NCBI RefSeq assembly: GCF_900142965.1
Contig: NZ_FRCQ01000026.1
Coordinates: forward strand, 1-64,000
Length of the DNA stretch: 64,000 nt
Origin: Rhizobacter sp. OV335
GTDB lineage: Bacteria; Pseudomonadota; Gammaproteobacteria; Burkholderiales; Burkholderiaceae_C
Reading direction: 5' to 3'
Part shown: in pieces, positions 25,529 to 41,438 of the stretch
Position numbering within the stretch: position 1 is the first letter of the stretch
Layout: each line of letters opens with the position of its first letter
Notes under the pieces: model-generated
Database searches by the model: none
Told to the model about the DNA's origin: nothing
The model's input: the letters and a program-made list of their open reading frames with translations, nothing else
Position numbers and translations under genes: made by a program

Positions 25529-28500
25529 CTACTTCGCCACCACCGCCGCCGGTGCGCCATCCGTCGGATGGTGCCGGCGCACCTTGCGCGACACCCACTG
25601 CACCACGTCGTCGACGAAGGTGAACAGCACCGGGATCACCAGCAGGCTCAGGAAGGTCGACGTGATCAGCCCGCCGATCACGACGATGGCCATCGGCGCG
25701 CGGAAGCTCGAATCGACGCCGATGCCGAGCGCGATCGGCAGCATGCCCGCGCCCATCGCGATGGTCGTCATCACGATCGGCCGGGCCCGCTTGTGGCAGG
25801 CGTCGAGCACCGCATCCCAGCGCGACAGCCCGTGCTCGCGGCGCGCCATGATCGCGTACTCGACCAGCAGGATCGAGTTCTTGGTCGCGATGCCCATCAG
25901 CATGATCAGCCCGATCATCGACGGCATCGACAGCGCGGTGTGGGTGACGAACAGCGCGAGGAAGGCCCCCGGCACCGACAGCACCAGCGCCGCGAGGATG
26001 GTCACCGGCTGCACGAAATCATGGAACAGCAGCACCAGCACGATGTAGATGCACATCACGCCGGTCAGCATCGCGAGGCCGAAGCCCGAGAACAGCTCCT
26101 GCATCGCCTCGGCATCGCCGACACCGGCCAGCGACACGCCGGCCGGCAGGCTGCGCAGGCTGGGCAGCTGCTCGGCCGTGCTCTGCACATGCTCCAGCGA
26201 CTGGCCGTTCAGCTCGATCTCGAAGTTGATGTTGCGCTTGCGGTCGAAGCGCGCGATCTGCGCCGGCCCGCTGTCGATCGACAGCGTCGCGACGTTGGCC
26301 AGCATCACCGGCCCCTTCGCGCCCGGCACCGCGAGCCGCGACAGCAGCTCCAGGTCGGTGCGCGCATCGGCCGCCAGCTTGACGACGATCGGCACCTGGC
26401 GCTGCGACAGGTTCAGCTTCGGCAGGCTCTGGTCGTAGTCGCCGGCGGTGGCGATGCGCAGCGTGTCGGCGATCGCGGCCGACGTGACGCCGAGGTCGGC
26501 CGCGCGCGCGAAATCGGGCCGCACGATCAGCTCCGGCCGCACCAGGCTCGAGGTCGACGTGACCGCGCCGATGCCCGAGATCGTGCGCAGCTCGCGCTCG
26601 ACCTGCTTCGAATGCTCGAGCAGCACGTCGCCGTCTTCACCGGCCAGCACCACCACGTACTTCTCGCCCGATCCGCCGAAGCCGACCGCGACCCGCGCGC
26701 CCGGCAGGCCGGCCAGCGCGTCGCGCAGCTGCTGCTCGATCACCTGCTTCTTCGGCCGGTGGCCGCGCTCGGTCAGGTTGATGCTGAGCGAGGCCTTGCG
26801 CACCTCGGCCGCGCCGGCGCCGGCGAACGGGTCGGCCCCGGTGTTGCCACCGCCGACCGCGGTGTAGACCAGTTTCACGTACTGATTCTTCTGCACGATG
26901 TCGCGCGCCTGCTCGGCCACCGCCAGCGTCTGCGCGAAGGTCGCGCCCGGCGGCAGCGAGATCGAGACCTGCGATTTCGACAGGTCGTCCGGCGGAATGA
27001 AGCCCTTCTCGAGGATGCCGGCGAGGACGATCGAGCCGGCGAAGAACGCGATGACCGCGACCGTCGTGATCACCCGGTGGTGCAGCGCGGCCGTGACCCA
27101 GCGCATGTAGATCTCGAGCCAGCGGCCTTCCTTGTGCTCGCCGGTCGGCGGCTTCAGCAGGTAGGCGGCCATCATCGGGGTCAGCAGCCGCGCGACCACC
27201 AGCGACATGAACACCGCGATCGCCGCCGTCCAGCCGAACTGCACGAAGAAGCGGCCGACCACGCCGCTCATGAAGGCGGTCGGCAGGAACACCGCGATCA
27301 GCGTGAAGGTGGTCGCGATCACCGCGAGGCCGATCTCGTCGGCCGCCTCCATCGCCGCCTGCAGCGGCGTCTTGCCCATGCGCAGGTGCCGCATGATGTT
27401 CTCGATCTCGACGATCGCGTCGTCGACCAGGATGCCGACCACCAGCGACAGCGACAGCAGCGTCACGCCGTTCAGCGTGAAGCCGGCCAGCGACATGAAC
27501 GCGAAGGCCGGGATCACCGACAGCGGCAGCGCGAGCGCCGACACCAGCGTCGCGCGCCAGTTGCGCAGGAACAGCCACACCACCAGCACCGCCAGCGCGG
27601 CGCCTTCGTACAGCATCGCCATCGAGCTGTCGAAGTCCTCCTGCACGTTGTCGACGAAGTTGAAGGCCTCGTCGAACTTCACCTCCGGGTGCGCCGCCTT
27701 CATCGCCTCGATCTCGGCGCGCACGCCGGCCGCCACCTCGGTCTCGCCGGCCCCGCGGGTGCGGGTGATCTCGAAGCCGACCACCGGCTTGCCGTTCAGC
27801 AGCGCCGTCGAGCGCTGCTCGGCCACCGTGTCGCTGACGCGCGCCACCTGCTCCAGCCGCAGCCGCCGGCCGTCGGCCAGCGAGATCTCCATCTTCGCGA
27901 GCTCTTCGGCCGAGCGCACGGTCGCGATGGTGCGCACCGATTGCTCGGCGCCGCCGACGTCGGTGCGGCCGCCCGAGGCCTCCTGCTGGATCTTGCTGAG
28001 CTGGTGCGAGATGTCGGCCGCGGTGGCGTTCAGCGCCAGCAGCCTGGCCGGGTCGAGCTCGACGCGCACCTCGCGCGTGACGCCGCCCACTCGCGCGACC
28101 GCGCCGACACCGCGCACGCTGAGCATCTGCTTGCCCACCGTGTTGTCGACGAACCATGACAGCGACTCTTCATCGAGCCGGTCGGACGCGACGGTGTAGG
28201 TCAGGATCGGCGAGCCCGACAGCTCCATCTTCGTGACCACCGGGTCGCGCAGGTCGGCCGGCAGGTCGGCGCGCACGCGCGAGACGGCGGCGCGCATGTC
28301 GTCGACCGCCTCCTGCACCGGCTTCTCGAGGCGGAACTCGCCGGTGATGGTGACCAGGCCGTCGGTCACCGAGGTGTAGACGTGCTTCAGGCCCTGCAGC
28401 GTCGCGACCGAGTTCTCGATCTTGCGCGCGACGTCGGTCTCGAGCTGCGACGGCGACGCGCCCGGCAGCGCGGCCGAGATCGTGACGGTCGGCAGCTCGA

Positions 28501-28624
28501 TGTCGGGGAAGTTCTGCACCTTCATGCTCTTGAAGCTGTACAGCCCGAGCAGGGTCAGCAGGATGAAGAGCAGCACCGCGGGGATCGGGTTGCGGATCGA
28601 CCAGGCGGAGACGTTGATGTTCAT
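25529..28624 (-). CDS. RND efflux transporter, inner-membrane permease
   Basis: A 1031-residue AcrB/MexB-superfamily protein of normal length. The start MNINVSAWSIRNPIPAVLLFILL gives the first membrane helix. A periplasmic loop follows with FPDIELPTVTISAALPGASPSQLETDV. Helix 4 carries the paired acidic residues of the proton relay in GILVDDAIVEIEN, and a second large loop follows (about 560-850). It is a proton-driven drug or solvent pump in a tripartite complex with the adaptor and outer-membrane channel encoded upstream in the same operon. It is closer to multidrug (HAE) than metal (CzcA) types by the motif set. The substrate is unknown. Confidence 0.92.
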   Translation of the reverse strand: MNINVSAWSIRNPIPAVLLFILLTLLGLYSFKSMKVQNFPDIELPTVTISAALPGASPSQLETDVARKIENSVATLQGLKHVYTSVTDGLVTITGEFRLEKPVQEAVDDMRAAVSRVRADLPADLRDPVVTKMELSGSPILTYTVASDRLDEESLSWFVDNTVGKQMLSVRGVGAVARVGGVTREVRVELDPARLLALNATAADISHQLSKIQQEASGGRTDVGGAEQSVRTIATVRSAEELAKMEISLADGRRLRLEQVARVSDTVAEQRSTALLNGKPVVGFEITRTRGAGETEVAAGVRAEIEAMKAAHPEVKFDEAFNFVDNVQEDFDSSMAMLYEGAALAVLVVWLFLRNWRATLVSALALPLSVIPAFAFMSLAGFTLNGVTLLSLSLVVGILVDDAIVEIENIMRHLRMGKTPLQAAMEAADEIGLAVIATTFTLIAVFLPTAFMSGVVGRFFVQFGWTAAIAVFMSLVVARLLTPMMAAYLLKPPTGEHKEGRWLEIYMRWVTAALHHRVITTVAVIAFFAGSIVLAGILEKGFIPPDDLSKSQVSISLPPGATFAQTLAVAEQARDIVQKNQYVKLVYTAVGGGNTGADPFAGAGAAEVRKASLSINLTERGHRPKKQVIEQQLRDALAGLPGARVAVGFGGSGEKYVVVLAGEDGDVLLEHSKQVERELRTISGIGAVTSTSSLVRPELIVRPDFARAADLGVTSAAIADTLRIATAGDYDQSLPKLNLSQRQVPIVVKLAADARTDLELLSRLAVPGAKGPVMLANVATLSIDSGPAQIARFDRKRNINFEIELNGQSLEHVQSTAEQLPSLRSLPAGVSLAGVGDAEAMQELFSGFGLAMLTGVMCIYIVLVLLFHDFVQPVTILAALVLSVPGAFLALFVTHTALSMPSMIGLIMLMGIATKNSILLVEYAIMARREHGLSRWDAVLDACHKRARPIVMTTIAMGAGMLPIALGIGVDSSFRAPMAIVVIGGLITSTFLSLLVIPVLFTFVDDVVQWVSRKVRRHHPTDGAPAAVVAK

Positions 28625-28658
28625 GGGGCGTCGTCCTTGAAGGGAAGCCGGCGCGCGC

Positions 28659-29810
28659 TCAGCGCGAGGCCGTCGCGGCAGCGGAGGCGGCCGCCGGCAC
28701 CGGTAGCGCGTCGACCACGCGCACCGTGTCGCCATCGCCCAGGAAGCCGCCGCCGGTGGCGACGACGCGGTCGGCCGGCTGCACGCCGCCGAGGATCTGG
28801 ATGCGATCGCCGACGCGCTGGCCGACCTTCACCTTGACCAGCGTGACCTTGTTGTCGGCCCCGACCCGCAGCACGTAGCTGAAGCCCTCGCGCAGCAGCA
28901 CCGCGCTCTGCGGCAGCGTCATGCCCTGCTGCGAGCCGATCTCGAACTCGCCGCGGGCGAACATGCCGGCCTTCGCGGCGCTGGCACCGCCCGGCAGGTC
29001 GACGTAGACCAGGCCGTTGCGCGTCTGCGCATCGACGGTGGGCGCAATGATGCGCAGCTTGCCGGTGACCGGCTCGCCGCTCGCGGGCAGCACGCGCACC
29101 GCCATGCCGGGCTTCAGCGGCCCGATCTCCGACGACGGCACCTCGGCACGCCATTCGAGCCGGCCGCCGCGGATCAGGCGGAACAGTTCCTGGCCGGCCG
29201 GCAGCACCGCGCCGACGGTGGCACTGCGCGACGAGATCACGCCGTTGTCGGGCGCCAGCACCTGGGTCTGCTGCAGCCGCAGCTGCTGCACCTTGGCGGC
29301 GGCGCGCTGGGCTTCGAGCCGCGCCTGCGCGGTGCGCTCGGCCGTCAGGTACTGGTTGGTCTGCTGTGCGCTGAGCGCGCCGGTGGGCTGCAAGTCGCGG
29401 GCACGCTGTGCGTTGGCGGCGGCCTCGGCGGCATTCGCCTCGGCCTCGGCGACCGCGGCGCGGGTCTGCGCGAGGTCGGCATGGATGGTGTCGGACGCGA
29501 AGCTCGCGAGCACCTGGCCGCGCTTGACCACGTCGCCGACGTTCACCTTCACGTCGGCCAGGCGCAGGCCGTTGGCCTCGGTGCCGACGATCGCTTCCTG
29601 CCACGCGGCGATGCTGCCGTTGGCGGCCAGCAGCGTCGGCAGGCTGGCCGGCTGCAGCTGCGTCACGGTGACGGTCAGCGCGGGCTTGGCGGCGGCAGGC
29701 TTCTTCTCGTCGGCGGCGCGGACGGTGCTCGTCACCGAGACGGCCAGCAGCGCGGCGAGCACGCCGGCAGCGGCGAGGGACAGCAGCAGGGGCTTCAGTC
29801 GTTGGGTCAT
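28659..29810 (-). CDS. RND efflux periplasmic adaptor (membrane fusion protein)
   Basis: A 383-residue adaptor. Signal peptide MTQRLKPLLLSLAAAGVLAALL is followed by a lipoyl half-motif (ANGSIAAWQEAIVGTEANGLRLADVKVNVGDVVKRGQVLA), a long alpha-hairpin rich in Ala and Gln (about 95-165), the second lipoyl half (VLAPDNGVISSRSATVGAVL) and beta-barrel/MP domains. It bridges the inner-membrane pump and the outer-membrane channel. The ATG at 29810 lacks a good ribosome site; a TTG at 29846 overlaps the preceding stop as TTGA and could be the true, coupled start, adding 12 residues. Confidence 0.9.
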   Translation of the reverse strand: MTQRLKPLLLSLAAAGVLAALLAVSVTSTVRAADEKKPAAAKPALTVTVTQLQPASLPTLLAANGSIAAWQEAIVGTEANGLRLADVKVNVGDVVKRGQVLASFASDTIHADLAQTRAAVAEAEANAAEAAANAQRARDLQPTGALSAQQTNQYLTAERTAQARLEAQRAAAKVQQLRLQQTQVLAPDNGVISSRSATVGAVLPAGQELFRLIRGGRLEWRAEVPSSEIGPLKPGMAVRVLPASGEPVTGKLRIIAPTVDAQTRNGLVYVDLPGGASAAKAGMFARGEFEIGSQQGMTLPQSAVLLREGFSYVLRVGADNKVTLVKVKVGQRVGDRIQILGGVQPADRVVATGGGFLGDGDTVRVVDALPVPAAASAAATASR

Positions 29811-29842
29811 GGTCGGGCTGATCGGGTGGATCGTCGGGGTGT

Positions 29843-31315
29843 TCAAGGAGTGGCCTTCGTGGGGCCGGCGGGATCGTCGGCGCGGGTGGCAGCCTGGGTG
29901 GCATCAGCCACCGGTGTGCCGGTGCGCCAGCCGCCGCCGAGCGCGCGGTACAGCGTGATCCAGGCGGCGACGCGCTCGCGCTGCAGGTCGATCAGCGTGC
30001 CGTGCGCGAGCACCGCGCTGCGGCGTGCGTCTTCCAGCTCGAACAGGCTGGCCAGGCCGCCCTTGAAGCGGGCTTCGGTGGCGCGGAACGACTGCTCGAA
30101 GCCTTCGTCGGCGATGCGGGCGTTCTCGGTGCGCGCCGCGCTGCTGTCGAGCTGCACCAGCGCCTGCTCGACCTCCTGCACCGCGGTGCGCAGCTTCGCG
30201 CGGTAGAGCGACGCGGCCTCGTCGTAGCGGGCGCGGGCCGCATCGACATTGGCGCGGCGCAGGCCGGCGTCGAAGATCGGCAGCGTGACCGCCAGCGGCC
30301 CGACCGACCACACCGTGCCGCTCTGGGTGGCGTCGCCCAGGTCGACGCGGGCGCGCGAGATCGAGCCGGCCAGCGTGACGCGCGGCAGCCGCTTCGCGCG
30401 CGCCTGCGACACCTCGGCGCTCGCCGCGCCGAGCTCACGCGCCGCGTTGAAGACATCGGGCCGCTGGTTCAGCACCTCGGCCGGCACGCTGTCGATCGCC
30501 AGCTCGGCCGGCTGCGGGAGGCGCGCGGTGCCGGCCGCCAGTTTCGTGCGCAGCGCCAGCTCGTCGATCGCCGTCAGCGCGACCAGGCCCTTGACCGCGA
30601 TGTCGCATTGCGCGCGCTGCGCGGTCAGCAGGCTCGCGCCCTGGGCGGCACTGGCGCGCGCCAGCGCCGCGTCGGCCGGCGGCTGGAAGCCGGCCTGCGC
30701 GCTCAGCCCGGTGAGACGGGCGGTCTCGGCGCGCGAGGCCGCATCGGCCTCGGTCTGCACCAGCTGCGCCTCGCAGGCGCGCAGGCCCAGGTAGGCGTTC
30801 GCGGTTTCGGCGGCGACCGACACGCGGGCGTCGTGCCACGACGCTTCGGCCCCTTCGAGGCGGTACTGCGCCGCATCGCGGCCGGCCCGGCCGGCGCCGA
30901 ACACGTCGATCTCCCACGCCGTCTGCAACCCGGCCGAAGTGGTGGTGGCCAGCGGCGTGACGAAATCGGTGCGGCCGCGCGTCGCGCTGGCGGTGGCATC
31001 GAGCGTGGGCAGCAGCGCCGCGCCGGCGCCGGTGCGCGTGGCCTGCGACTGCGCCAGGCGCGAGCGGGCCGTCGCGAGCGTCGGGCTGACGGATTGCGAA
31101 GCGTCGATCAGCTGCGAGAGCACCGGGTCGTCGAACTGCTGCCACCAGCCGGTCAGGTCGGCGAGGCGGCCGTTGTGCGGCAGCGGGGCGTACCACTGCG
31201 CCGGCAGCAGCGCCGGATCGGCGGCCGGCTCGGGCGGCGCGCTCGCGCAGCCGGCCAGGCCCGCCACGGCGGCCAGCGTGGCCGCCAGCAGGGCGGCGCG
31301 GGTCGGTGTCGTCAT
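29843..31315 (-). CDS. RND efflux outer-membrane factor lipoprotein, NodT/OprM type
   Basis: A 490-residue outer-membrane channel lipoprotein. The signal peptide ends in the lipobox AGLAGCAS, with acylation at Cys (about residue 23). Duplicated OEP repeats follow, with ARSRLAQSQATRTGAGAALLPTLDATASATR and SVPAEVLNQRPDVFNAARELGAASAEV marking the two halves. The ATG overlaps the TetR stop (ATGA). It forms the exit duct of the pump. Confidence 0.92.
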   Translation of the reverse strand: MTTPTRAALLAATLAAVAGLAGCASAPPEPAADPALLPAQWYAPLPHNGRLADLTGWWQQFDDPVLSQLIDASQSVSPTLATARSRLAQSQATRTGAGAALLPTLDATASATRGRTDFVTPLATTTSAGLQTAWEIDVFGAGRAGRDAAQYRLEGAEASWHDARVSVAAETANAYLGLRACEAQLVQTEADAASRAETARLTGLSAQAGFQPPADAALARASAAQGASLLTAQRAQCDIAVKGLVALTAIDELALRTKLAAGTARLPQPAELAIDSVPAEVLNQRPDVFNAARELGAASAEVSQARAKRLPRVTLAGSISRARVDLGDATQSGTVWSVGPLAVTLPIFDAGLRRANVDAARARYDEAASLYRAKLRTAVQEVEQALVQLDSSAARTENARIADEGFEQSFRATEARFKGGLASLFELEDARRSAVLAHGTLIDLQRERVAAWITLYRALGGGWRTGTPVADATQAATRADDPAGPTKATP

Positions 31316-32019
31316 CGCTTGTCCTCTCTTTTGTCTGTTTTTTTCAGCGCCGCGCGGCGCACGCCTTCGGCGTCGACCATCGCCAGCGCATACAGGACCA
31401 GGCGCTCGGACCACAGGTCGAGCGCCCGCGGGTGGCTGTTCAGGCGCGGCGCCAGCGCGTCGGTGACGTCCTGCGCGATCTGCAGGTGCACACCCAGCGC
31501 CGCGATGCAGATCGCCAGCCGGTGCAGCTCGTCGTCGGCGCGGCGCAGCCCCAGGTGGCGCGCCAGCAGCGCGACCAGCGCCTCGTGGCGCGGCTTGATG
31601 CCGTTGACGATCTCGTCCTGCCAGACGCCGGTCGGCTCCAGCATCTCGCGCACGTGCAGGCGCATGCACTGCTGCGTCATGTCGCCATGCTTCAGTGGCT
31701 CGAGGAAGCCGGCGTACAGGCCGTGCAGCGCGTCGGGCAGCGTCATCGCCGGGTCGGCGTAGCGGGCGATGTCGTCGGCCGGCGTGCTCAGCGGGCCGGC
31801 GAACACCGCGCGGTACAGCCCCGCCTTGTCGCCGAAGTAGTAGCTGATGGCGGCGATGTTCACCTGCGCGGCCTCGGCGATCTCGCGGGTGGAGGTCTTG
31901 TTGTAGCCGTGCTGCGCGAACAGGCGCAGCCCGGCCAGCAGCAGGCGCATGCGCGACTGCTCGCCGTCGCTGCGCGGTGCGCGCGGGGCCTGGAGCGTTT
32001 CAGGGAGGGTGGCCGACAT
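31312..32019 (-). CDS. TetR-family repressor of the RND operon
   Basis: A 235-residue TetR regulator. The DNA-binding region is AAGL..LFAQHGYNKTSTREIAEAAQVNIAAISYYFGDKAGLYRAVF (about residues 28-75), followed by a ligand domain of the type seen with efflux pumps (CerR/YbiH-like). It is the first gene of the operon and overlaps the channel gene by four bases. A perfect AAATCAA-N4-TTGATTT palindrome (32040-32057) is 20 bases upstream of the ATG and is the likely operator, so the whole operon including the repressor should be induced together. ATG 32019 is preferred to TTG 32046. Confidence 0.9.
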   Translation of the reverse strand: MSATLPETLQAPRAPRSDGEQSRMRLLLAGLRLFAQHGYNKTSTREIAEAAQVNIAAISYYFGDKAGLYRAVFAGPLSTPADDIARYADPAMTLPDALHGLYAGFLEPLKHGDMTQQCMRLHVREMLEPTGVWQDEIVNGIKPRHEALVALLARHLGLRRADDELHRLAICIAALGVHLQIAQDVTDALAPRLNSHPRALDLWSERLVLYALAMVDAEGVRRAALKKTDKREDKR

Positions 32020-32039
32020 GGGCCGGGACTCTATCAAAT

Positions 32040-32057
32040 AAATCAAACGATTGATTT
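32040..32057. promoter_or_regulatory. Candidate TetR operator
   Basis: The perfect 18-bp palindrome AAATCAA-ACGA-TTGATTT lies in a short AT-rich island just upstream of the repressor start, where the -10 region is expected. Position and symmetry fit autorepression. Confidence 0.7.
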
Positions 32058-32077
32058 AGTTTTTAGGGGGTGACGAC

Positions 32078-32269
32078 TCAGGGCGCCTCGAAGATGTCCT
32101 CGATCGGCAGGCCGAAGGTGCGGGCGATCTGGAAGGCCAGCGGCAGGCTCGGGTCGTAGCGCTCGTTCTCGATCGCGTTGACCGTCTGGCGCGACACCTG
32201 CAGGCGCTCGGCCAGCTCGGTCTGCGACCAGCCGCGCTCCGCCCGCAGCGTCTTCAGGCGGTTCTTCAA
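32078..32269 (-). CDS. Small XRE-family regulator, YozG-like
   Basis: A 63-residue protein that is little more than a Cro/CI helix-turn-helix: KNRLKTLRAERGWSQTELAERLQVSRQTVNAIENERYDPSLPLAF, ending IEDIFEAP. The start is TTG at 32269, which overlaps the TGA of the upstream membrane-protein gene as TTGA, so translation is coupled; the longer frame upstream is a shadow of that gene. This size and partner arrangement (tiny XRE protein plus small multi-span protein) is recurrent in bacteria. It likely binds the two TGTAAAG-N4-CTTTACA-like sites upstream. Confidence 0.82.
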   Translation of the reverse strand: MKNRLKTLRAERGWSQTELAERLQVSRQTVNAIENERYDPSLPLAFQIARTFGLPIEDIFEAP

Positions 32270-32661
32270 CGGTAGCGCCGGGCGGCAATCAGGCCGCCGA
32301 CGACCCACAGCACCGCCATCAACGGCCACACGGTGAACATCGACAACGGGCGCCAGCCGACCCCTTCGAGGAAGCCGTAGCTGAAGGTCAGCAAGGCCGT
32401 GCCGGCAAATGCGAAGCCGAGCGCTTCGAGCTGCACCCGCATCTGCAGCTCGTCGAGCCGGCGAAACTGACGCAGGATCGCCCAGCAGGCGGCGATGCAC
32501 GGAAGCGTCGGCAGCAGCGCCACCAGCGTCGCGGACGGGCCTTCGAAGTAGCCCGTCTTCAGCAGGAAGATCGAGCTGCACAGCACCAGCCCATAGGCCA
32601 GCATCGCGGCACCGAGCTCGAACAGATAGCGGCGGGGGATGGGCGAGAAGCATTTCATCAT
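32266..32661 (-). CDS. Small four-span membrane protein, partner of XRE regulator
   Basis: A 131-residue protein with four hydrophobic segments (about 12-34, 42-64, 80-100 and 105-125). There is a charged loop RQFRRLDELQMRVQLEALGFAFAGT between spans 2 and 3, typical of this uncharacterised family found next to YozG-like regulators. Two ATGs (32661, 32658) are adjacent. Two operator-like palindromes precede it. The function is unknown; the pairing suggests the membrane protein influences or is controlled by the XRE protein. Confidence 0.75.
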   Translation of the reverse strand: MMKCFSPIPRRYLFELGAAMLAYGLVLCSSIFLLKTGYFEGPSATLVALLPTLPCIAACWAILRQFRRLDELQMRVQLEALGFAFAGTALLTFSYGFLEGVGWRPLSMFTVWPLMAVLWVVGGLIAARRYR

Positions 32662-32671
32662 CGGTAGGCCA

Positions 32672-32734
32672 TGTAAAGGTTGCTTTCCATTCCATCTTAG
32701 GCACGAAGCCCGCCGATGTAAAGCACCTTTTACA
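32672..32734. promoter_or_regulatory. Two matching operators for the XRE/membrane-protein pair
   Basis: Two 18-bp sites of the form TGTAAAG-N4-CTTTACA lie upstream of the pair: 32672-32689 (TGTAAAG GTTG CTTTCCA, one mismatch) and 32717-32734 (TGTAAAG CACC TTTTACA, one mismatch). Their starts are 45 bases apart. Each is symmetric enough for a dimer of a short XRE protein. Confidence 0.65.
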
Positions 32735-32820
32735 GTCCTCCGTCCTCCCTGCGCTTCCCGCCCACCCCCTGCGGCTCCTCTCCTCCTCCCCGAGAACCGT
32801 GTCGCAGATCCTTGCTCAAC

Positions 32821-33972
32821 TCACTGCAGCGGCAGGCTCGCCTGGCGCGGCTCGCCGGCCGGTGGGAACGCATCGGGCCGCAGCCGGCGCGGCACGCCGC
32901 CGGCCGTGCGGCGCATCAGCACCGCGTGCGGCACGTAGCCGCGCGAATCGATGTCCCAGCCGTCGGTCGCCTGTTCGTCGCTGACGCATTCGATGCGCAC
33001 CGTGCCGAGCTGCCGGGCGCTCGCGCGCTGCACCAGTGCCTCGCACTGCGCCGCCGTCAGCTGGCGCGCGAAGAGCGTCCAGCGCTGCTGCACCAGCGGC
33101 TGGCGCCAGGCGTCTTCGATGGCCCAGCGCAGCGCCTGCGGCGTGCTGTTGCGGCCGGCCTCGAGCACGCGCGGCAGCAGCGCATGGAAGAAGGTCTGGA
33201 ACGCACGCCGCAGCAGCTTGCCGGGCAGCAGGTCTTCGAGCCGCGTCATGCGGTGGCTCCAGCCCGGCGCGGTGAGCTGCTGGCTGATGAAGGCCTGCAG
33301 CGCCTGCACCGGGTTGAACAGCCGCAGCCGGTTCGGTGGCAGCACCAGCAGCGGCAGCGCGCTCGCTTCTTCATGCGTCAGCGGCTCGACGAAGCTGCAC
33401 AGCACCGCGACGCGCGACCACTGCTCGGCCGTCAGCCCGTTCAGCCCGCCGAGCGGGCCGCCTTCGATCAGCTTGACGAACTGCAGCGCGTCGCGGTACC
33501 CGTGCGCCGCCTTCGCGTGGTTGGCCTTGGCGCTCATCACCGCCAGGTTGCCGGCGGCATAGCCGGCATCGCTGCGCACGCGGTCGATCGACGCGATCGT
33601 TGAATCCATGCCTTCGGTCGTGTCGGACGACAGCGCCAGCCGCGTGATCGGGCAGTGGCTCACGTCGATCTGCTGCAGGTAGTGCGGCGTCACCTGCACC
33701 AACTCGACGCTGCGGCCGCGCAGCCAGGCATGCAGCCGCAGCTGCAGCCACTTGCGCACGGGCGGCGTCGGCTGCAGCGTGCGCGAGCCGAAGGCCGCCT
33801 GGCCGGACAGCCAGCCGTTGCGCAGCGGCGAGGGCTCGTTGGCGTACGGCGCCGGCGGCGTGACGGCGTAGTGCCCGTAATCCCAGCCCAGCTCGAAGCC
33901 GATGTGCTCGTGCGCGGTCAGGCTGTTCGGCACGGCGGGGGTCGGCAGGGACGTCGGCAAAGAGAGGGTCAT
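32821..33972 (-). CDS. Uncharacterised protein with a degenerate HNH-like motif
   Basis: A 383-residue soluble protein, not recognised as a whole. The centre (residues about 104-152) reads SHCPITRLAL, then SIDRVRSDAGYAAGNLAVMS and AKANHAK. This resembles HNH endonucleases, whose core is often Cys-x-x-Thr-Gly followed by SLDRID..GY..GNV.W....N. Here the pattern is only partly kept: Cys107, Asp130, Asn142 and Asn151 are present, while the usual HNH His pair is not obvious. The flanks look alpha-helical. It is divergent from a WYL regulator, and the shared gap has two identical-type palindromes, so the pair is probably co-regulated. Nuclease activity is speculation. Confidence 0.6.
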   Translation of the reverse strand: MTLSLPTSLPTPAVPNSLTAHEHIGFELGWDYGHYAVTPPAPYANEPSPLRNGWLSGQAAFGSRTLQPTPPVRKWLQLRLHAWLRGRSVELVQVTPHYLQQIDVSHCPITRLALSSDTTEGMDSTIASIDRVRSDAGYAAGNLAVMSAKANHAKAAHGYRDALQFVKLIEGGPLGGLNGLTAEQWSRVAVLCSFVEPLTHEEASALPLLVLPPNRLRLFNPVQALQAFISQQLTAPGWSHRMTRLEDLLPGKLLRRAFQTFFHALLPRVLEAGRNSTPQALRWAIEDAWRQPLVQQRWTLFARQLTAAQCEALVQRASARQLGTVRIECVSDEQATDGWDIDSRGYVPHAVLMRRTAGGVPRRLRPDAFPPAGEPRQASLPLQ

Positions 33973-34033
33973 CGTTCGGCTCCGTGGGTTCCGCTGCGCG
34001 ATGCAGCGATGGAGCGAAGTTTTGCGGCCGGGT

Positions 34034-34050
34034 AGCTCACCACATGAGCC
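34034..34050. promoter_or_regulatory. Palindrome A of the HNH-like/WYL divergent promoter
   Basis: AGCTCA-CCACA-TGAGCC, inverted GCTCA-N5-TGAGC, closer to the minus-strand gene. It is a second copy of the site at 34099-34115 and shares its half-sites and 5-base spacer. Likely a binding site of the WYL protein; inferred. Confidence 0.6.
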
Positions 34051-34098
34051 ACCAGTGCACGTGGCCCCGAAAAGACATCCGGGTATGCTCGCGTGGCT

Positions 34099-34115
34099 GG
34101 CTCATCTGGTGAGCC
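34099..34115. promoter_or_regulatory. Palindrome B of the HNH-like/WYL divergent promoter
   Basis: GGCTCA-TCTGG-TGAGCC, a perfect 6-bp inverted repeat with a 5-base spacer, 31 bases before the WYL start codon. Centre-to-centre distance to palindrome A is 65 bases. Position overlaps the expected promoter of the WYL gene, suggesting autoregulation. Confidence 0.65.
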
Positions 34116-34146
34116 ACCCGACTGATACCGCCCATCGATACCTCCC

Positions 34147-35136
34147 ATGGACCGCACCGAACGCTTCTACAAGATCGAACTGCTGCTGCGCAGCCGCGGC
34201 TGCGTCGGCTTCGACGCGCTGCTCGCCGAGCTCGACATCTCGCCGGCCACGCTGAAGCGCGACCTGCAGTACCTGCGCGACCGGCTCAGCGCGCCGATCG
34301 TCTACGACCGTTTCGAGAACGGCTACCGCTTCGAGCACGGCGACACGCAGGCGCTGCCGGGCGCGCGCCACGAACTGCCCGGCGTGTGGTTCAGCGAGAA
34401 GGAAATCCACGCGCTGCTGACGATGCACCAGCTGATGGCGGGGCTGGACGACGACGGCGTGCTGTCGCGCCACCTGCAGCCGATGGTCGACAAGCTGCAG
34501 GGCATGCTGGGCGCCGACGAGAGCGAGGCGCGGGAGCTGATGCGGCGCGTCAGGATGATCGTCACCGCGCGCCGCCGCACGCCGAGCCGGCACTTCGAAC
34601 TGCTCGGCAGCGCGCTGGTGCAGCGCAAGCGCATCTGGCTGCGCTACTTCAAGCGCACCGACCGCAGCACCAGCGAGCGCGAGGTGTCGCCGCAGCGGCT
34701 GGTGAACTACCGCAACACCTGGTACCTGGACGCCTGGTGCCATGCGAGCGACGGCCTGCGCCGCTTCGCGCTCGATGCGGTGCAGGAGGCGCGGCCGCTC
34801 GACACGCGCGCGCGCCATGTCGCGGTGAAAGACCTCGAGGCCGCGCTCGACGCCGGCTACGGCATCTACAGCGGCACCGGCAGCGCGCTGAAGTGGGCGA
34901 CGCTGGTGTTCGAGCCCGATGCGGCGCAATGGGTGGCGAACGAAGAGTGGCATCCGCAGCAGAAGGCGCGCTGGCTGGACGACGGCCGCTACGAACTGCA
35001 GGTGCCGTACAGCGACCCGACCGAGCTGACGATGGACATCCTGCGCCACGGCGACAGCGTCGTCGTCGCCGGCGACAAGGCGCTCGCGGCGGCCATCGCG
35101 GCGCGGCTCGCGAAGGCCGCGGCGCGGTACTCGTAG
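34147..35136 (+). CDS. WYL-domain transcriptional regulator
   Basis: A 329-residue regulator. A DeoR-like winged helix (residues 1-60, FDALLAELDISPATLKRDLQYLRDRL) precedes a WYL domain (about 140-225) in which the core RNTWYLDAWCH places Trp192-Tyr193-Leu194, followed by a C-terminal WCX-type region. WYL proteins bind nucleotides or nucleic-acid ligands and include PafBC, BrxR and CapW, some of which repress phage-defence genes. Here it is divergent from the HNH-like gene with two palindromes in between. There is no strong ribosome site. Confidence 0.88.
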   Translation: MDRTERFYKIELLLRSRGCVGFDALLAELDISPATLKRDLQYLRDRLSAPIVYDRFENGYRFEHGDTQALPGARHELPGVWFSEKEIHALLTMHQLMAGLDDDGVLSRHLQPMVDKLQGMLGADESEARELMRRVRMIVTARRRTPSRHFELLGSALVQRKRIWLRYFKRTDRSTSEREVSPQRLVNYRNTWYLDAWCHASDGLRRFALDAVQEARPLDTRARHVAVKDLEAALDAGYGIYSGTGSALKWATLVFEPDAAQWVANEEWHPQQKARWLDDGRYELQVPYSDPTELTMDILRHGDSVVVAGDKALAAAIAARLAKAAARYS

Positions 35137-35139
35137 CGG

Positions 35140-36981
35140 CTACAGCAACGACAGCTGAAAGGTATTGCGCCCGGCCGTCTTCGCCGCATAGAGCGCGCCA
35201 TCCGCCCGTGCCAGCAGCGCCGCCGGGTCGAGGTTGCCATGCCGATGGAACGCAACGCCGATGCTCGTCGTCACGACCAGCACCTGCCCGTCGACCTCGA
35301 ACGGCCGGTTCATCTGCGCGACGATCTTCTGCGCCACCGCGGTCGGCTCGACGTCGGTGCCCAGCCCCTCGAGCACGATCACGAACTCGTCACCGCCCAT
35401 CCGCGCCACGGTGTCGGTCGAGCGCACGCTGCCGCGCAGCCGGTCGGCGAACTCCTTCAGCACGCGGTCGCCGGTGCCGTGGCCGAAGCGGTCGTTGATG
35501 TCCTTGAAGCGGTCGACGTCGAGGAACATCAGCGCCAGCAGGTCGCCGCTGCGCTCGGCGCGCGCCAGCGCCTCGTGCAGGCGCTCGTTCAGCGCGTGGC
35601 GGTTCGGCAGGCCGGTCAGCGCGTCGACCCGGGCCAGCGCCGCCAGTTGCCGCTCCACCGCCTTCTGCGCCGACACGTCGCTGCTGAGCGCGTACAGCCC
35701 GCGGATGCGCCCGTCGCGCGCCGGGTCGGGGATGTAGACGTTGTGCAGGCAGCGGATCTCGCCGCGCACCGGTGTCTCGACGTCGAACTCGACGCGCTCG
35801 CCCGCCAGTGCCCGCTCCACCGCCGCGCGCCGCGCCTCGTACATCGCCGGCCCCAGCACCTCGACCATGTGCCGGCCGACCTGGGCCGCCGGGTCGAGGC
35901 CGAGCCAGCTGTGGAAGGTCGCGTTGCAGAACTGGAAGCACTGCGCGGTGTCGATGTAGGCGACCAGCGCCGGCAGGTTGTCGGTGACCTCGCGCAACCG
36001 CCGGTCGGCGATGTGGCGTTGCCGCTCGCTGCGCCGCAGCCGTTGCACCAGCGCGCTGAGCGCGCCGAAGATGGCCAGCAGCACCGCGGTCGCGACGCCG
36101 GCGACCGCCAGCTCGTCCCGGCGGCGCGCCTCGTGCTCGGCCAGCACCTCCGATTCGGCCAGCCCGGTGAACACGACGAAGGGCCGGTCGGCGAGCTGCT
36201 TGTAGGCCAGCAGGCGCGGCACGCCGTCGAGCCGGCTGGTCGCGCTGTAGGTGCCCTCGGAGGCACGCGCCAGCTCGTGGATCAGGAAGTTGTTGCCGGC
36301 CGTCTCGCCGAACCACAGGCGGTCGCCGGAGCGCCGCGCCCGCACCGTCCAGTCGAGCCCGACGAAGCTGATGACGCCCTCGCGGCCGAGCTGCTGCTCG
36401 TCGTAGAAGCGGGTGAAATAAGACGGGTCGGTCAGCACCACGACGACACCGGCGAACGCGCCCTGCGGCGTCTGCAGCCGCCGGCTGAGCTGCACGGTCC
36501 AGGCCTGGCTGACCCGGCTGACCAGCGGCTTGCTGATGTAGAGCCCCGGCGTCTTCCCGTCGACGTGCACCTTGAAGTGCTCGCGGTCGGCCACGTTGAG
36601 CCCCAGGCCCTGCCCGGTCGACGCGATCACGTTGCCGTCGGCATCGGCCACGTACAGCGCCACCAGCCCCGGCTGGGTGACGAGCCCGCGGCGCAGCAGG
36701 CCCGGCAGGTCCACATCGCGCCCGCGCTGCTCGACGCCGTAGGCCACGAAGTTGCTGATCTGGTCGAGCTGCGACAGCGCGCGCTCGGTGTACTCCTCGA
36801 ACGCGCGGTTCAGGCTGCGCGCCTTCGCGTAGGCATCGGCGACCACCCGGGCGCGCTCGGCCGCCAGGCTGTGCAGCACGAAGGCCCACATGAAAGCGAT
36901 CACCATCACACCGATGGCCGGAAGCGCCCAGCCGATCCAGGCCAGGCTGCGACGGCGAAAACGGGCCTGCGCTGAAAGCAT
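35140..36981 (-). CDS. Diguanylate cyclase with periplasmic Cache and PAS sensors
   Basis: A 613-residue membrane-bound signalling protein. A first helix (about 12-34) leads to a periplasmic double-Cache sensor (about 40-290, with DREHFKVHVDGKTPGLYISKPLVSR) and a second helix (about 300-322). A PAS domain (about 345-460) and a C-terminal GGDEF domain follow. The active site GGDEF is intact at residues 529-533, and the product-inhibition site RSTD (520-523) lies exactly five residues before it, so it should make cyclic di-GMP and be feedback-inhibited. No EAL domain. ATG 36981 (MLSAQARFRRR) is chosen just before the first helix. It is convergent with the WYL gene. Confidence 0.93.
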   Translation of the reverse strand: MLSAQARFRRRSLAWIGWALPAIGVMVIAFMWAFVLHSLAAERARVVADAYAKARSLNRAFEEYTERALSQLDQISNFVAYGVEQRGRDVDLPGLLRRGLVTQPGLVALYVADADGNVIASTGQGLGLNVADREHFKVHVDGKTPGLYISKPLVSRVSQAWTVQLSRRLQTPQGAFAGVVVVLTDPSYFTRFYDEQQLGREGVISFVGLDWTVRARRSGDRLWFGETAGNNFLIHELARASEGTYSATSRLDGVPRLLAYKQLADRPFVVFTGLAESEVLAEHEARRRDELAVAGVATAVLLAIFGALSALVQRLRRSERQRHIADRRLREVTDNLPALVAYIDTAQCFQFCNATFHSWLGLDPAAQVGRHMVEVLGPAMYEARRAAVERALAGERVEFDVETPVRGEIRCLHNVYIPDPARDGRIRGLYALSSDVSAQKAVERQLAALARVDALTGLPNRHALNERLHEALARAERSGDLLALMFLDVDRFKDINDRFGHGTGDRVLKEFADRLRGSVRSTDTVARMGGDEFVIVLEGLGTDVEPTAVAQKIVAQMNRPFEVDGQVLVVTTSIGVAFHRHGNLDPAALLARADGALYAAKTAGRNTFQLSLL

Positions 36982-37157
36982 GTGTCCAACGACCTCGTGT
37001 GGGGCAGTGATGCCTCCCCGGGCGAGCCGATCGAGCGACCGTGACGACGATAAGCCCAAACGGCCTTGCCGCAACAGCGGGCTTTTCCTTCAAACACGGG
37101 GGTGCCGGCACCCCCGCCGCTACCATCGCACGCGTCAGCGACACGAAAGGAACGCGC

Positions 37158-37439
37158 ATGAAAGCAGTCTGGAACGGCGTGACCCTCGCCGAGAGCGACG
37201 ACACGGTGGTCGTCGAGGGCAACCACTACTTCCCCGAGAGCAGCCTGAAGCGCGAGTACGTCAGCTTCAGCAACCACCGCACCAGCTGCCCGTGGAAGGG
37301 GCAGGCGCACTACTACAGCCTGCTGGTGAACGGCGAGGCCAACCCGGACGCCGTCTGGTACTACCCGGAGCCGAGCGAGGCGGCCGCGCAGATCAAGGGC
37401 CGGGTCGCGTTCTGGAAGGGCGTGCAGGTCGAGCGCTGA
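37158..37439 (+). CDS. DUF427-domain protein
   Basis: A 93-residue single-domain protein of the DUF427 family, with MKAVWNGVTLAESDDTVVVEGNHYFP and the motif TSCPWKGQAHYYSL, then AVWYYPEPSEAAAQIKGRVAFWKGV. The fold is a small beta barrel of unknown function. GAAAGGAA precedes the ATG; upstream codons in the same frame are not needed. It stands alone between the diguanylate cyclase (divergent) and the binding-protein gene. Confidence 0.9.
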   Translation: MKAVWNGVTLAESDDTVVVEGNHYFPESSLKREYVSFSNHRTSCPWKGQAHYYSLLVNGEANPDAVWYYPEPSEAAAQIKGRVAFWKGVQVER

Positions 37440-37544
37440 TCCTCCATAAGGCTGGCTGATGGGGCCCGGGGAAGATCCGATGCCTCACCCGGCACGAAGC
37501 TCGCTAGCATCCTCGCACCGCAACCGCTGTTCGAGGACCCACCC

Positions 37545-38432
37545 ATGTCGCTGCGTTCCCTTCGTGCACTGTCCCTCCTCGCCTGTGCGCTCCCGCTGCT
37601 CGCGGCCGCCCAGACCACGCTCGAGAAGGTCAAGCAGAGCGGCGTGATCGGCGTCGCCTACCGCGAGTCGTCGATCCCGTTCTCGTACCTCGACGACAAG
37701 GCGCAGCCGGTCGGCTTCGGCGTCGACATCTGCAACAAGGTGGTCGAGGCGGTGAAGAAATCCACCGGCCGCGCCGACCTGAAGGTGCAACTGCAGGCCG
37801 TGACCTCGGCCAACCGGATCCCGCTGCTGCAGAACGGCACCATCGACATCGAGTGCGGTTCCACCACCAACAACAGCGAGCGCGGCAAGCAGGTCGCGTT
37901 CGCGACCAACTACTTCTACACCGGCACGCGCTTCCTGGTGAAGGCCGGCACGCCGGTGAAGTCGCTCGCCGACCTGGCCGGCAAGCCGGTCGTGTCGACC
38001 ACCGGCACCACCAACTACAAGATCCTGCGCAACCTGAACGAAGAGAAGAAGCTCGGCATCGACCTGCTGGGCGCGAAGGACCATGCCGAATCGGCGTTGA
38101 TGGTGCAGACCGGTCGCGCGGTCGCGTTCGGCATGGACGACATCCTGCTGTACGGCCTGAAGGCGAGCGCCGCCAACCCGGCCGAGCTGGCGGTGGTGGG
38201 CGAGGCGATCCAGGTCGAGCCGTACGCCATCATGGTGCGGCGCGAGGACCCGGCCTTCAAGAAGCTGGTCGACGACACGATCGCCGGGCTGATCCAGAGC
38301 GGCGAGTTCGAGGCGCTCTACAAGAAGTGGTTCCAGTCGCCGATCCCGCCGAAGGGCATCAACCTGCAGGCACCGATGAGCCAGGAGCTGCGCGACAACC
38401 TGAAAGCGCTGAGCGACAAGCCGGCGACCTGA
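37545..38432 (+). CDS. Amino-acid ABC transporter periplasmic binding protein, GltI-like
   Basis: A 295-residue family 3 solute-binding protein. The signal peptide ends LLAAAQ. The mature part has GVIGVAYRESSIPFSYLDDKAQPVGFGVDICNKVVEAV and NGTIDIECGSTTNN, close to the glutamate/aspartate-binding GltI/DEBP group. GAGGA lies seven bases before the ATG. No permease or ATPase is adjacent; instead a racemase and a D-amino-acid dehydrogenase follow on the same strand, so it may deliver an acidic or D-amino acid to a transporter encoded elsewhere. Confidence 0.88.
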   Translation: MSLRSLRALSLLACALPLLAAAQTTLEKVKQSGVIGVAYRESSIPFSYLDDKAQPVGFGVDICNKVVEAVKKSTGRADLKVQLQAVTSANRIPLLQNGTIDIECGSTTNNSERGKQVAFATNYFYTGTRFLVKAGTPVKSLADLAGKPVVSTTGTTNYKILRNLNEEKKLGIDLLGAKDHAESALMVQTGRAVAFGMDDILLYGLKASAANPAELAVVGEAIQVEPYAIMVRREDPAFKKLVDDTIAGLIQSGEFEALYKKWFQSPIPPKGINLQAPMSQELRDNLKALSDKPAT

Positions 38433-38470
38433 GCGGCCCCGCCCTCCTCCTTCGTCGACAAGACACAGCC

Positions 38471-39268
38471 ATGAACGAGGCAGCGTGCGGTGCACGCGGC
38501 GCGGGCGCGATCGTGCCTCCGCCGGATCCGGTGCCGGGCCTGGTCGGCGTACTCGGCGGCATGGGCCCGCTCGCGACGCTCGACTTCCTGCACAAGGTGC
38601 TGGCCGCGACACCGGCGCGCCGCGACCAGGACCACGTGCCGATGATCGTCAGCAGCATCCCGCAGGTGCCCGATCGCACCGCCGCCTTCCGCGGCGAAGG
38701 CGAATCGCCGCTGCCGGCGCTACTCGCCTGCGGCGAGCGGCTCGCCGCAGCGGGCGTCGGGCTCGTGGTGCTGCCGTGCAACACCGCGCACCTGTGGTTC
38801 GATGCACTGCAGTCGGCGCTCGGCCTGCCGATGCTGCACCTGGCCGACGCCGCGCTGGCCGAACTGGCACGGCGCGCGCCGGGTGCCCGCGTCGGGCTGC
38901 TGGCGACCGATGCAACACTGGCCTCGGGCCTTTATCTGAACCGCCCATCGGTGCATCCGTTGCAGCATCGGCCACATTGGGTGCTGCCGACCGCGCCCGA
39001 GATGGTCGACTGGGTGATGCCGGGCATCGCCGCGGTCAAGGCCGGTGCGCCGGAGCTCGGCCGCGACCTGCTGCTGAAGGCTGCGCAGGCGCTGCAGCGG
39101 CGCGGCGCCGAGGCGCTGCTGCTCGGCTGCACCGAGCTGCCGCTGGTGCTCGACGAAGCGGGGCTCGGCCTGCCGGTGATCGACGCGACCGATGCGCTGG
39201 CGCGCGCCGTCGTCGCGTGGTCGCAGGCGCAGCGCGCGGCCGCGCCCACCGACGTGGTGGCCGCATGA
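38471..39268 (+). CDS. Aspartate/glutamate racemase-family protein
   Basis: A 265-residue Asp/Glu racemase (PLP-independent). Both catalytic cysteines are present, in VVLPCNTAHLWF and LLLGCTELPLVL, and the N-terminal GVLGGMGPLATLDFLHKV is the family start. It interconverts D- and L-aspartate or related amino acids. The open frame extends far upstream through the binding-protein gene in another frame, but ATG 38471 (MNEAACGARG) is the realistic start. Its TGA overlaps the dehydrogenase ATG, so the two proteins are made together. Confidence 0.85.
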   Translation: MNEAACGARGAGAIVPPPDPVPGLVGVLGGMGPLATLDFLHKVLAATPARRDQDHVPMIVSSIPQVPDRTAAFRGEGESPLPALLACGERLAAAGVGLVVLPCNTAHLWFDALQSALGLPMLHLADAALAELARRAPGARVGLLATDATLASGLYLNRPSVHPLQHRPHWVLPTAPEMVDWVMPGIAAVKAGAPELGRDLLLKAAQALQRRGAEALLLGCTELPLVLDEAGLGLPVIDATDALARAVVAWSQAQRAAAPTDVVAA

Positions 39269-40533
39269 AGCACATCTGCATCATCGGCGCCGGCGTGATC
39301 GGCAGCGCCACCGCGATGGCCCTGGCGCGCGAGGGCTTCCAGGTCACGCTGGTCGATGCCGCCGACCGCCCCGGCCAGGGTGCGAGCCGCGCCAACGGGG
39401 CGCAGCTCAGCTACAGCTACGTGGAACCGCTCGCGACACCGGCCGCGCTGCGCGCGCTGCCGGGCTGGCTGCTGTCGCGCGACAGCCCGCTGTCGTGGCA
39501 ACCGCGCTGGCAGTTGTCGCACTGGCGCTGGCTGGCCGCGTTCATCCGCGCCTGCACGCAGGCCCGCGTGCAGCAGACCACCGAGGCGCTGCTGCGCCTG
39601 TCGTTCCTGAGCCGCGACGTGCTGGCGCGCTGGCAACGGGAAGCGCCGACGGAGCGGCCGCTCGGCGTGCAGGTCCGCCAGGCGGGCAAGCTGGTGATCC
39701 ACCGCGACGCCGGCAAACGCGACGCGGCGCAGCGGCAGGTCGCCTGGCAGGCCCGGTTCGGCTGCCGGCAGCGCGTGCTGGACGCCGACGCGTGCCGGCG
39801 GCAGGAGCCGGCGCTCGCGCATGACCGCGCGCCGATCGCGTTCGGCGTCTGGACGCCCGACGAGGCCGTCACCGATGCGCAGCAGCTGAGCCATGCGCTG
39901 GCCGAGGCCAGCGGCGCGCGCTGGCGCATGGACACCCGCGTCGTCGGCTTCGTGCAGCGCGACGGCCGCGTACATGCGCTGCGCTGCACCGATGCCGGCG
40001 GCGCAGAGCGCGAGATCGAGGCCGACGCCTTCGTCGTGTCGGCCGGCCCCGGCGCGGCCGCGCTGCTGAAGCCGCTCGGCGTGCCGCTGCCGATCGAGCC
40101 GATCAAGGGCTACAGCATCAGCCTGCAGATCGCGAACGCCGCGCGGGCGCCGCAGGTCAGCGTGACCGATGCGGCGCGCAAGCTGGTCTACGCGCGGCTC
40201 GGGGAGCGCGTGCGCATCGCAGGCTTCGCCGAGTTGCGCGGCGCCGACCTGCGCATCGACCCGCGCCGCATCGAGGCCATGCTGCAGGCCGCGACCGACA
40301 CTTTCCCCGGCGCGTTCCAGACCGGCGACCCCGAGCCCTGGGCCGGCCTGCGCCCGGCGACACCGGGCTCGCGCCCGCTGATCGGCGCGACGCGCATCGG
40401 CGGGCTGTGGCTGAACACCGGCCATGGCGCGCTCGGCCTGACGCTCGCGTGCGGCAGCGCCTGGCTGCTGTCGCAGCTGATGCAGGACCGCACGCCGTCG
40501 ATCGACGCGGCGCCGTTCAGGCTGCAGGACTGA
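39265..40533 (+). CDS. FAD-dependent D-amino-acid dehydrogenase, DadA-like
   Basis: A 422-residue flavoprotein of the DAO family. The FAD-binding site is HICIIGAGVIGSATAMALAREG at the N-terminus, with VDAADRPGQGASRANGAQLSYSY next and the C-terminal GLRPATPGSRPLIGATRIGGLWLNTGHGALGLTLACGSAWL. Such enzymes oxidise D-amino acids to keto acids and feed electrons to the respiratory chain at the inner membrane. It overlaps the racemase gene by four bases. Its 3' end overlaps the convergent LysR gene by 17 bases (40517-40533). Confidence 0.9.
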   Translation: MKHICIIGAGVIGSATAMALAREGFQVTLVDAADRPGQGASRANGAQLSYSYVEPLATPAALRALPGWLLSRDSPLSWQPRWQLSHWRWLAAFIRACTQARVQQTTEALLRLSFLSRDVLARWQREAPTERPLGVQVRQAGKLVIHRDAGKRDAAQRQVAWQARFGCRQRVLDADACRRQEPALAHDRAPIAFGVWTPDEAVTDAQQLSHALAEASGARWRMDTRVVGFVQRDGRVHALRCTDAGGAEREIEADAFVVSAGPGAAALLKPLGVPLPIEPIKGYSISLQIANAARAPQVSVTDAARKLVYARLGERVRIAGFAELRGADLRIDPRRIEAMLQAATDTFPGAFQTGDPEPWAGLRPATPGSRPLIGATRIGGLWLNTGHGALGLTLACGSAWLLSQLMQDRTPSIDAAPFRLQD

Positions 40534-41407: not shown

Positions 41408-41438
41408 GGCGCCGGCAGTATCCCCTGCCCGCGGCGCG

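Follow-up and report, generated by a model that had tools for sequence, protein, structure and literature searches.

The WYL-domain regulators met in the literature are PafBC, SiwR, DriD, BrxR and CapW, among which PafBC and DriD act in damage responses, and BrxR and CapW on single defence systems. PafBC is described as a mycobacterial DNA-damage activator of HTH-WYL-WCX architecture that governs DNA-damage genes, and DriD of Caulobacter as a homodimeric WYL activator whose damage response is independent of SOS and involves recA; both sense single-stranded DNA (ssDNA), two arginines of the WYL domain (R211 and R214) being essential for ssDNA binding by PafB (PMC11804915). BrxR and CapW are WYL repressors acting on palindromes upstream of defence operons, BREX and CBASS respectively, with a 5-bp spacer in the BrxR sites (PMC9122588, PMC9122601). 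The locus analyzed here lies in a 64,000-nucleotide stretch (hereafter the window; contig NZ_FRCQ01000026.1, positions 1 to 64,000 of the forward strand) of the 6.9 Mb genome of the soil bacterium Rhizobacter sp. OV335, where the gene of a 383-residue HNH-like protein diverges from that of a WYL regulator. An earlier note on this DNA had proposed the pair as a candidate new regulator/effector module, and had named BrxR and CapW as relatives of the regulator that control phage defence.

The results point to an unrecognised genome-protection circuit. The reading that we favour, as probable although far from secure, is that a WYL regulator represses a regulon for genome maintenance and defence, with the 383-residue gene among its targets and the product of this gene probably acting on DNA via the sliding clamp. 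What connects the locus with defence and repair is the presence of its operator at other genes. While the kind of regulator is known, the proposed operator-defined regulon and the target with a clamp-type tail are new. The parts of the locus are as follows.

32821..33972, minus strand: gene of the 383-residue HNH-like protein (open reading frame and translation), with a clamp-motif-like C-terminal tail
33508..33660, minus strand: HNH-like core, residues ~105-155 (SHCPIT...SIDR...GYAAGN...ANHAK), from alignments with bacterial and phage relatives
32827..32844, minus strand: putative beta-clamp-binding motif QASLPL, residues 377-382, in the predicted disordered tail
33973..34146: divergent intergenic region of 174 bp between the HNH-like and WYL genes
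34031..34053 (core 34035-34049): putative operator 1, HNH-proximal, 62 bp from the HNH-like ATG
34096..34118 (core 34100-34114): putative operator 2, WYL-proximal, 32 bp from the WYL ATG
34147..35136, plus strand: WYL regulator gene, 329 residues, HTH, WYL and WCX domains (open reading frame and Pfam)

A conserved divergent gene pair

Both open reading frames were found where the earlier note had placed them, back to back across the 174-bp gap. The WYL protein shows the three-domain order HTH-WYL-WCX (Pfam HTH_DeoR, 1.7e-4; WYL, 1.6e-19; WCX, 3.3e-11). Its closest solved sequence is PafBC (E=1.4e-18), and its best PADLOC match is the CRISPR-associated WYL family PDLC01457 (E=4.2e-33). Two relatives adjoin cas3, in likeness to the CRISPR-associated regulators. 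The window differs in this respect: inspection by eye of the open reading frames at 26000-42000, where no family search aimed at cas was made, revealed no cas gene.

The window contains two exact copies of the pattern GCTCA-N5-TGAGC and no more, both of them in the gap and 65 bp apart from start to start (0.24 copies expected per window by chance; at least two copies in 3 of 100 shuffles). The two copies had been described as identical palindromes; their number and distance were confirmed, but identity is confined to the arms, the spacers being CCACA and TCTGG. When they are compared on opposite strands, the sites agree almost completely beyond the palindrome as well (GGCTCATSTGGTGAGCY). The OV335 genome holds 7 sites of the pattern against 2 for a reversed-pattern control, and a search relaxed to two mismatches added six places, the control only one, while the stricter pattern RGCTCAYNNNRTGAGCY fits only the two gap sites. 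The matching palindrome at G000:C10, which shares bases with the 3' end of an open reading frame, is not a strict site and was set aside as chance. A scan of the 174-bp gap for sigma-70 promoters found none.

Of 100 related genomes, 24 (OV335 included) encode a relative of the 383-residue protein, as do all ten other genomes of the same genus, where the pair is adjacent in every case, and 25 loci of the contig collection genome_contigs; in an order-wide sample relatives occur in only 4 of 300 genomes (OV335 again included), two of the four matching the front part only. Across the 50 loci L005-L054 the WYL gene is adjacent and divergent in 46, and all 46 contain the exact palindrome. Two of the four remaining loci (L029 and L052) are contig-edge fragments, one (L028) holds a distant relative whose nearest WYL match lies on another contig, and one (L024) has a gene inserted between the pair and a palindrome with one mismatch. 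The separated pair in genome G040 (L064) has no exact palindrome and a single-mismatch one upstream of the HNH-like gene, and at an additional locus (L056) the WYL gene and two palindromes are present.

The two locus collections overlap, and removal of identical gaps left 39 distinct ones, with the core palindrome in all 39 and the extended pattern in 34. Two core sites are present in 25 of these gaps, spaced by 54-56 bp in 6, 63-67 bp in 17, 90 bp in one and 172 bp in one. The HNH-proximal site lies 54-70 bp from the HNH-like start codon in 20 of the 25, and the WYL-proximal site 12-56 bp from the WYL start codon in 34 of the 39. The bases of the core were fixed by the search itself, but three positions outside the searched core are conserved too (T in 57/64, C in 55/64 and A in 57/64); the consensus of the gap sites is GGTGGCTCAT-N3-RTGAGCCACC. 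To judge from these sequence comparisons, it is strongly supported that HNH-like gene, WYL regulator and operators form a conserved unit, in line with the regulator/effector pair that had been proposed. A self-contained, mobile defence module, or a mobile origin, finds no support in synteny, distribution or the viral scan, no scan of the other window genes for defence families having been made. Besides the constant adjacency within the genus, 16 of the 25 loci L030-L054 keep genes of the window's RND-type efflux operon (named by eye) next to the pair, while contig ends cut off part of the others, which makes the locus a stable chromosomal one, and a scan of viral contigs confirmed no relative.

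Operator sites across Burkholderiales

The WYL family was detected at E<=1e-60 in 43 of the 100 related genomes (OV335 included). In a sample of 150 genomes from the order, the extended site was present in 39 of 55 genomes with the WYL family and in 14 of 95 without it (Fisher p=5.5e-12, a value that overstates independence since the sampled genomes are related). The former contained 102 sites and the latter 15, against 15 for the reversed control in all 150 genomes, which corresponds to 1.85, 0.16 and 0.10 sites per genome, respectively. As judged from this sequence survey, the operator belongs to a WYL subfamily.

The further sites comprised 92 stretches with 96 extended sites, a few of these stretches also containing a WYL gene. 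Genes starting near a site include recA, cas3, rmuC, recC, genes for a MrfA-like helicase and for SNF2-type, HIRAN, HsdM and DinD proteins, as well as for an RNase H-like/AAA protein, type III methylases, Fic and DUF5131. Among the best 25 of 92 Pfam families, the site-proximal set counted RecA, four Cas3, two RmuC and RecC, together with two type III methylases, HsdM, two SNF2 and two MrfA-type proteins. Gene calls were heuristic, and the automatic rule missed an HNH endonuclease (PF01844, L122) located 52 bp from a site in a genome of the same genus. Of the 20 repair- or defence-type targets that were named, 17 have their start codon at 13-100 bp from the site (the exceptions being recA at 177 bp, one cas3 at 207 bp and HsdM at 166 bp), and this closeness to start codons suggests repression.

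The site-proximal set (86 of 89 automatically called proteins) was compared with 86 of 145 proteins lying at a distance in the same stretches, short calls and some others having been dropped by hand. The former matched 246 PADLOC families, with the best 25 listed, and the latter 5, although the 246 include many Cas3 models hit by the same four proteins, so that families are not equivalent to proteins. The same contrast was observed with Pfam, where site-proximal proteins belonged to helicases, Cas3, RmuC and methylases, while the distant ones were mostly assigned to metabolic families.

Some individual sites have other neighbours. In two genera (L093:3070 and L103:3040) a site stands between an oxidoreductase-like gene (named by eye) and the gene of a TonB-dependent receptor, which one would not expect a repair regulon to include. 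At L102:3158-5238 the site precedes the gene of a NA37 nucleoid-associated protein, followed by that of a RelA/SpoT-domain protein, which may represent an uncharacterised defence pair. Two protein families of no assigned function recur about 50 bp from the operator (the first at L152:1458-2504 and L155:1365-2477, the second at L081:1643-2623 and L153:1498-2475); one of them had no match in Pfam and the other none in plasmids, and both are candidate new members of the regulon. IS1595-type transposase genes stand by the operator at L172, L173 and L187, so sites may travel with insertion sequences.

The HNH-like protein and its C-terminal tail

The motifs SHCPIT, SIDR, GY..GN (here GYAAGN) and ANHAK, from which the earlier note had deduced a degenerate HNH-like core, are all present in the translation. 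The 383-residue protein had no match in Pfam, NCBIfam or PADLOC, the Pfam HNH family matched neither it nor 23 relatives, and a sequence search of solved structures returned no match for it. Among PHROG profiles, residues 92-167 matched phrog_3322, annotated as endonuclease (E=5.5e-11), with weaker matches of the protein to endonuclease VII and HNH families (phrog_1035, E=0.0037; phrog_3118, E=0.0047). The same families are matched by two distant bacterial relatives from stretches that contain no WYL gene, and one relative matches phrog_1400 Srd (E=0.0038). The consensus of the bacterial core is HCPxTR...S[IV]DRVR.DAGYAAGNLAVMS.KANHAK, of which S[IL]DR...GY..[GD]N is shared by the phage relatives. 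The phage HNH/endonuclease VII-like proteins (phrog_3322, phrog_1035, phrog_3118) resemble the protein in a core of the form CP...S[IL]DR...GY..[GD]N...AN..K. Beyond this core, the bacterial protein has helical regions on the N- and C-terminal sides as well as the clamp-motif tail.

The predicted model (mean predicted local distance difference test, pLDDT, 76.7; 285 of 383 residues at or above 70) contains a putative strand-strand-helix (strands at 128-131 and 143-146, helix at 148-155). Foldseek found no significant match of the full model in the PDB or among viral structures (best E 0.70 and 0.023, respectively); the core modelled alone folded poorly, at a pLDDT of 58, with an HNH nicking enzyme in its top row (E=1.2, not significant). 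VIA-align ranked AceCas9 first (Z 4.6, model residues 91-190), PacI fourth (Z 3.8) and FnCas9 sixth (Z 3.5), the Cas9 ranges being presumably their HNH domains; this ranking of a predicted model is consistent with HNH at Z values reachable by chance, as any Z under 8 can be. An HNH-like ancestry of the core is supported by the PHROG sequence profiles and only weakly by the predicted structure.

Canonical nucleases of the HNH or His-Me finger type have a D-H pair containing the catalytic histidine, a conserved central asparagine and a second asparagine or histidine at the metal site. In the present protein the catalytic histidine is missing from the pair, which reads D130-R131, and the same D-R occurs in the phage relatives; it thus characterises the broader lineage and is no sign that this copy has decayed. 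Nearly all of the 23 aligned sequences have D130, R131 and N142, and most have N151, with histidine in its place in L044-L046, so that the central and metal-site features are retained. From these sequences, cleavage by the protein cannot be assumed. It could well be, if not quite probably, that the core now serves as a structural, non-catalytic module for binding DNA or protein, as it perhaps does in the phage proteins with the same signature. Such a change of role would fit the D-R shared by the family and its phage relatives, the viral fold search, in which anti-sigma proteins of the Srd type rank first and third (not significantly), the match of a relative to phrog_1400 Srd, and the lineage L053, which has lost the SIDR and GN residues (N142 and N151 both gone) and kept the locus. 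It fits less well with the endonuclease annotation of the best PHROG matches and with the near-invariance of D130, R131 and N142. This alternative concerns the activity of the target only and is compatible with the regulon reading.

Residues 340-383 are modelled with a pLDDT under 50 and end in QASLPLQ. The C-termini of relatives include QMSLLH, QLSLLH, QASLEL, QLSLPWAA, QRELAL and similar ones, preceded by linkers of 6-28 residues where measurable. The published clamp-binding consensus is Q-phi-x-[LM][FL] or Q-phi-x-[LM]-x-[FL] (PMC13254535), and residues 377-382 (QASLPL) agree with it. By this published rule the motif was found in 11 of 38 distinct C-termini (shuffles, mean 0.17 and maximum 2; unrelated proteins, 1 of 172) and by a looser one in 24 (shuffles, mean 0.77 and maximum 5; unrelated proteins, 3 of 172), the 38 being drawn from related and hence not independent proteins. 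L014, L025, L036, L050 and L051 were excluded from this test on account of a contig edge or of a frame that is fused or broken, whereas the contig-edge fragment L029 remained in the count. The QASLPLQ terminus looks like a beta-clamp-binding motif, and the Hda protein of E. coli presumably carries a similar one, QLSLPL. In Rhizobacter sp. Root1221 (L036:10004-11941, and L014) the HNH-like frame continues into a TetR-like frame to give 646 residues, and this fusion frame lacks the C-terminal clamp motif.

The proposed regulon and its alternatives

We propose that the WYL protein, probably as a homodimer, would bind a 23-bp palindrome containing GGCTCA-N5-TGAGCC and would most likely repress both its own gene and the divergent HNH-like gene. 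DNA damage or infection may be the inducing signal that relieves repression; the 383-residue protein would then be made on demand, and its tail could recruit this HNH-derived protein to the sliding clamp at sites of replication or repair, where it might nick, bind or recruit. In architecture and in a link to DNA-damage genes this resembles PafBC, yet repression is more likely here, and the symmetric palindromes suggest a homodimer, unlike PafBC. A homodimeric WYL regulator with recA in its response is known in DriD, which differs in being an activator. As with BrxR and CapW, a palindrome stands upstream of a divergent target, a likeness of sequence and position only; the strings GCTCA and TGAGC appear in neither of the two main texts (PMC9122588, PMC9122601), and the neighbours of those regulators are BREX, CBASS and similar systems, rather than a gene outside PADLOC.

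Several observations weigh against the favoured reading. Arginine is found in none of 66 distinct family sequences at the equivalents of PafB R211 and R214 (which hold Ala, Ser, Gly or Thr), while those of R181, Y196 and R208 are kept in 65, 64 and 65 of them, the residues having been mapped via the PafB half of 6sj9 with an inferred numbering offset of 3. Because these positions are never arginine, a PafBC-type ssDNA signal is doubtful and the ligand may differ; the residue comparison does not support ssDNA sensing of that type by the family. The extended site is absent from 16 of the 55 genomes with the WYL family. No gene starts within 250 bp of 27 of the 96 further sites, under a rule that omits WYL genes, and among the site-proximal genes there are some seemingly unrelated to DNA (TonB receptors, MFS transporters, peroxiredoxins), as well as transposases. 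In the protein itself, the core residues lost in L053 count on the same side, as do the 14 of 38 C-termini that lack the clamp motif even by the looser rule; in view of the latter and of the relatedness of the proteins, the tail motif is best taken as typical of the Rhizobacter/Piscinibacter part of the family.

Among 20 further WYL stretches that were fetched, moreover, the extended site occurs in only 7 and the core palindrome in 13. A last point of this kind also speaks for the alternative that the pair is autoregulated locally and nothing more, that the other sites serve WYL paralogues or other regulators, and that the HNH-like protein is an ordinary housekeeping DNA protein: the OV335 genome has no strict site outside this gap, and its regulon may comprise just these two genes. 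The HNH gene is absent from 19 of the 20 fetched WYL stretches, where the neighbours include RecC, Cas3 and MutS (the latter ~1 kb off), so that each WYL protein may serve its own neighbours. We nevertheless regard a purely local pair as unlikely, since site counts track the presence of the WYL family and since in several genomes repair and defence genes carry sites at a distance from the WYL genes that were detected; in G023, which has a single WYL match at E<=1e-60, sites lie on another contig near recA and cas3. That the HNH-like protein is an anti-phage effector, namely a fork-targeted nuclease repressed until infection in the manner of CapW or BrxR, agrees with the control of CBASS and BREX by WYL repressors (PMC9122588, PMC9122601) and with the same operator preceding cas3 and restriction-modification genes, but appears improbable for a protein that lacks the catalytic histidine and any PADLOC, Pfam or NCBIfam match and that is encoded at a stable chromosomal locus with conserved flanks.

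Beyond the favoured regulon reading, a wider proposal is put forward more tentatively, as something that may be true without our quite expecting it: the GGCTCA-N5-TGAGCC WYL subfamily could, with its operator, provide Burkholderiales with a second layer of control, similar to LexA, in which repair (recA, recC, rmuC, MrfA-like, dinD) and defence (cas3, restriction-modification) are regulated jointly, with the clamp-tethered HNH-like protein as a dedicated effector of the Rhizobacter/Piscinibacter group. Among the open-licence papers listed by the literature searches, none dealt with this operator or with a WYL regulon joining recA, recC, rmuC and cas3. If true, an order-wide operator common to repair and defence genes would join the two roles in which WYL regulators have been met; it would also offer a simple sequence test for membership of the regulon and a source of candidate new repair or defence genes, among them the clamp-tailed HNH-like protein.

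Directly downstream of the HNH-like gene, the region 32078-32704 of the window encodes a small membrane protein at 32266-32661, with an HTH_3 protein in a different frame. The membrane protein is present in 2 of the 25 loci L030-L054.

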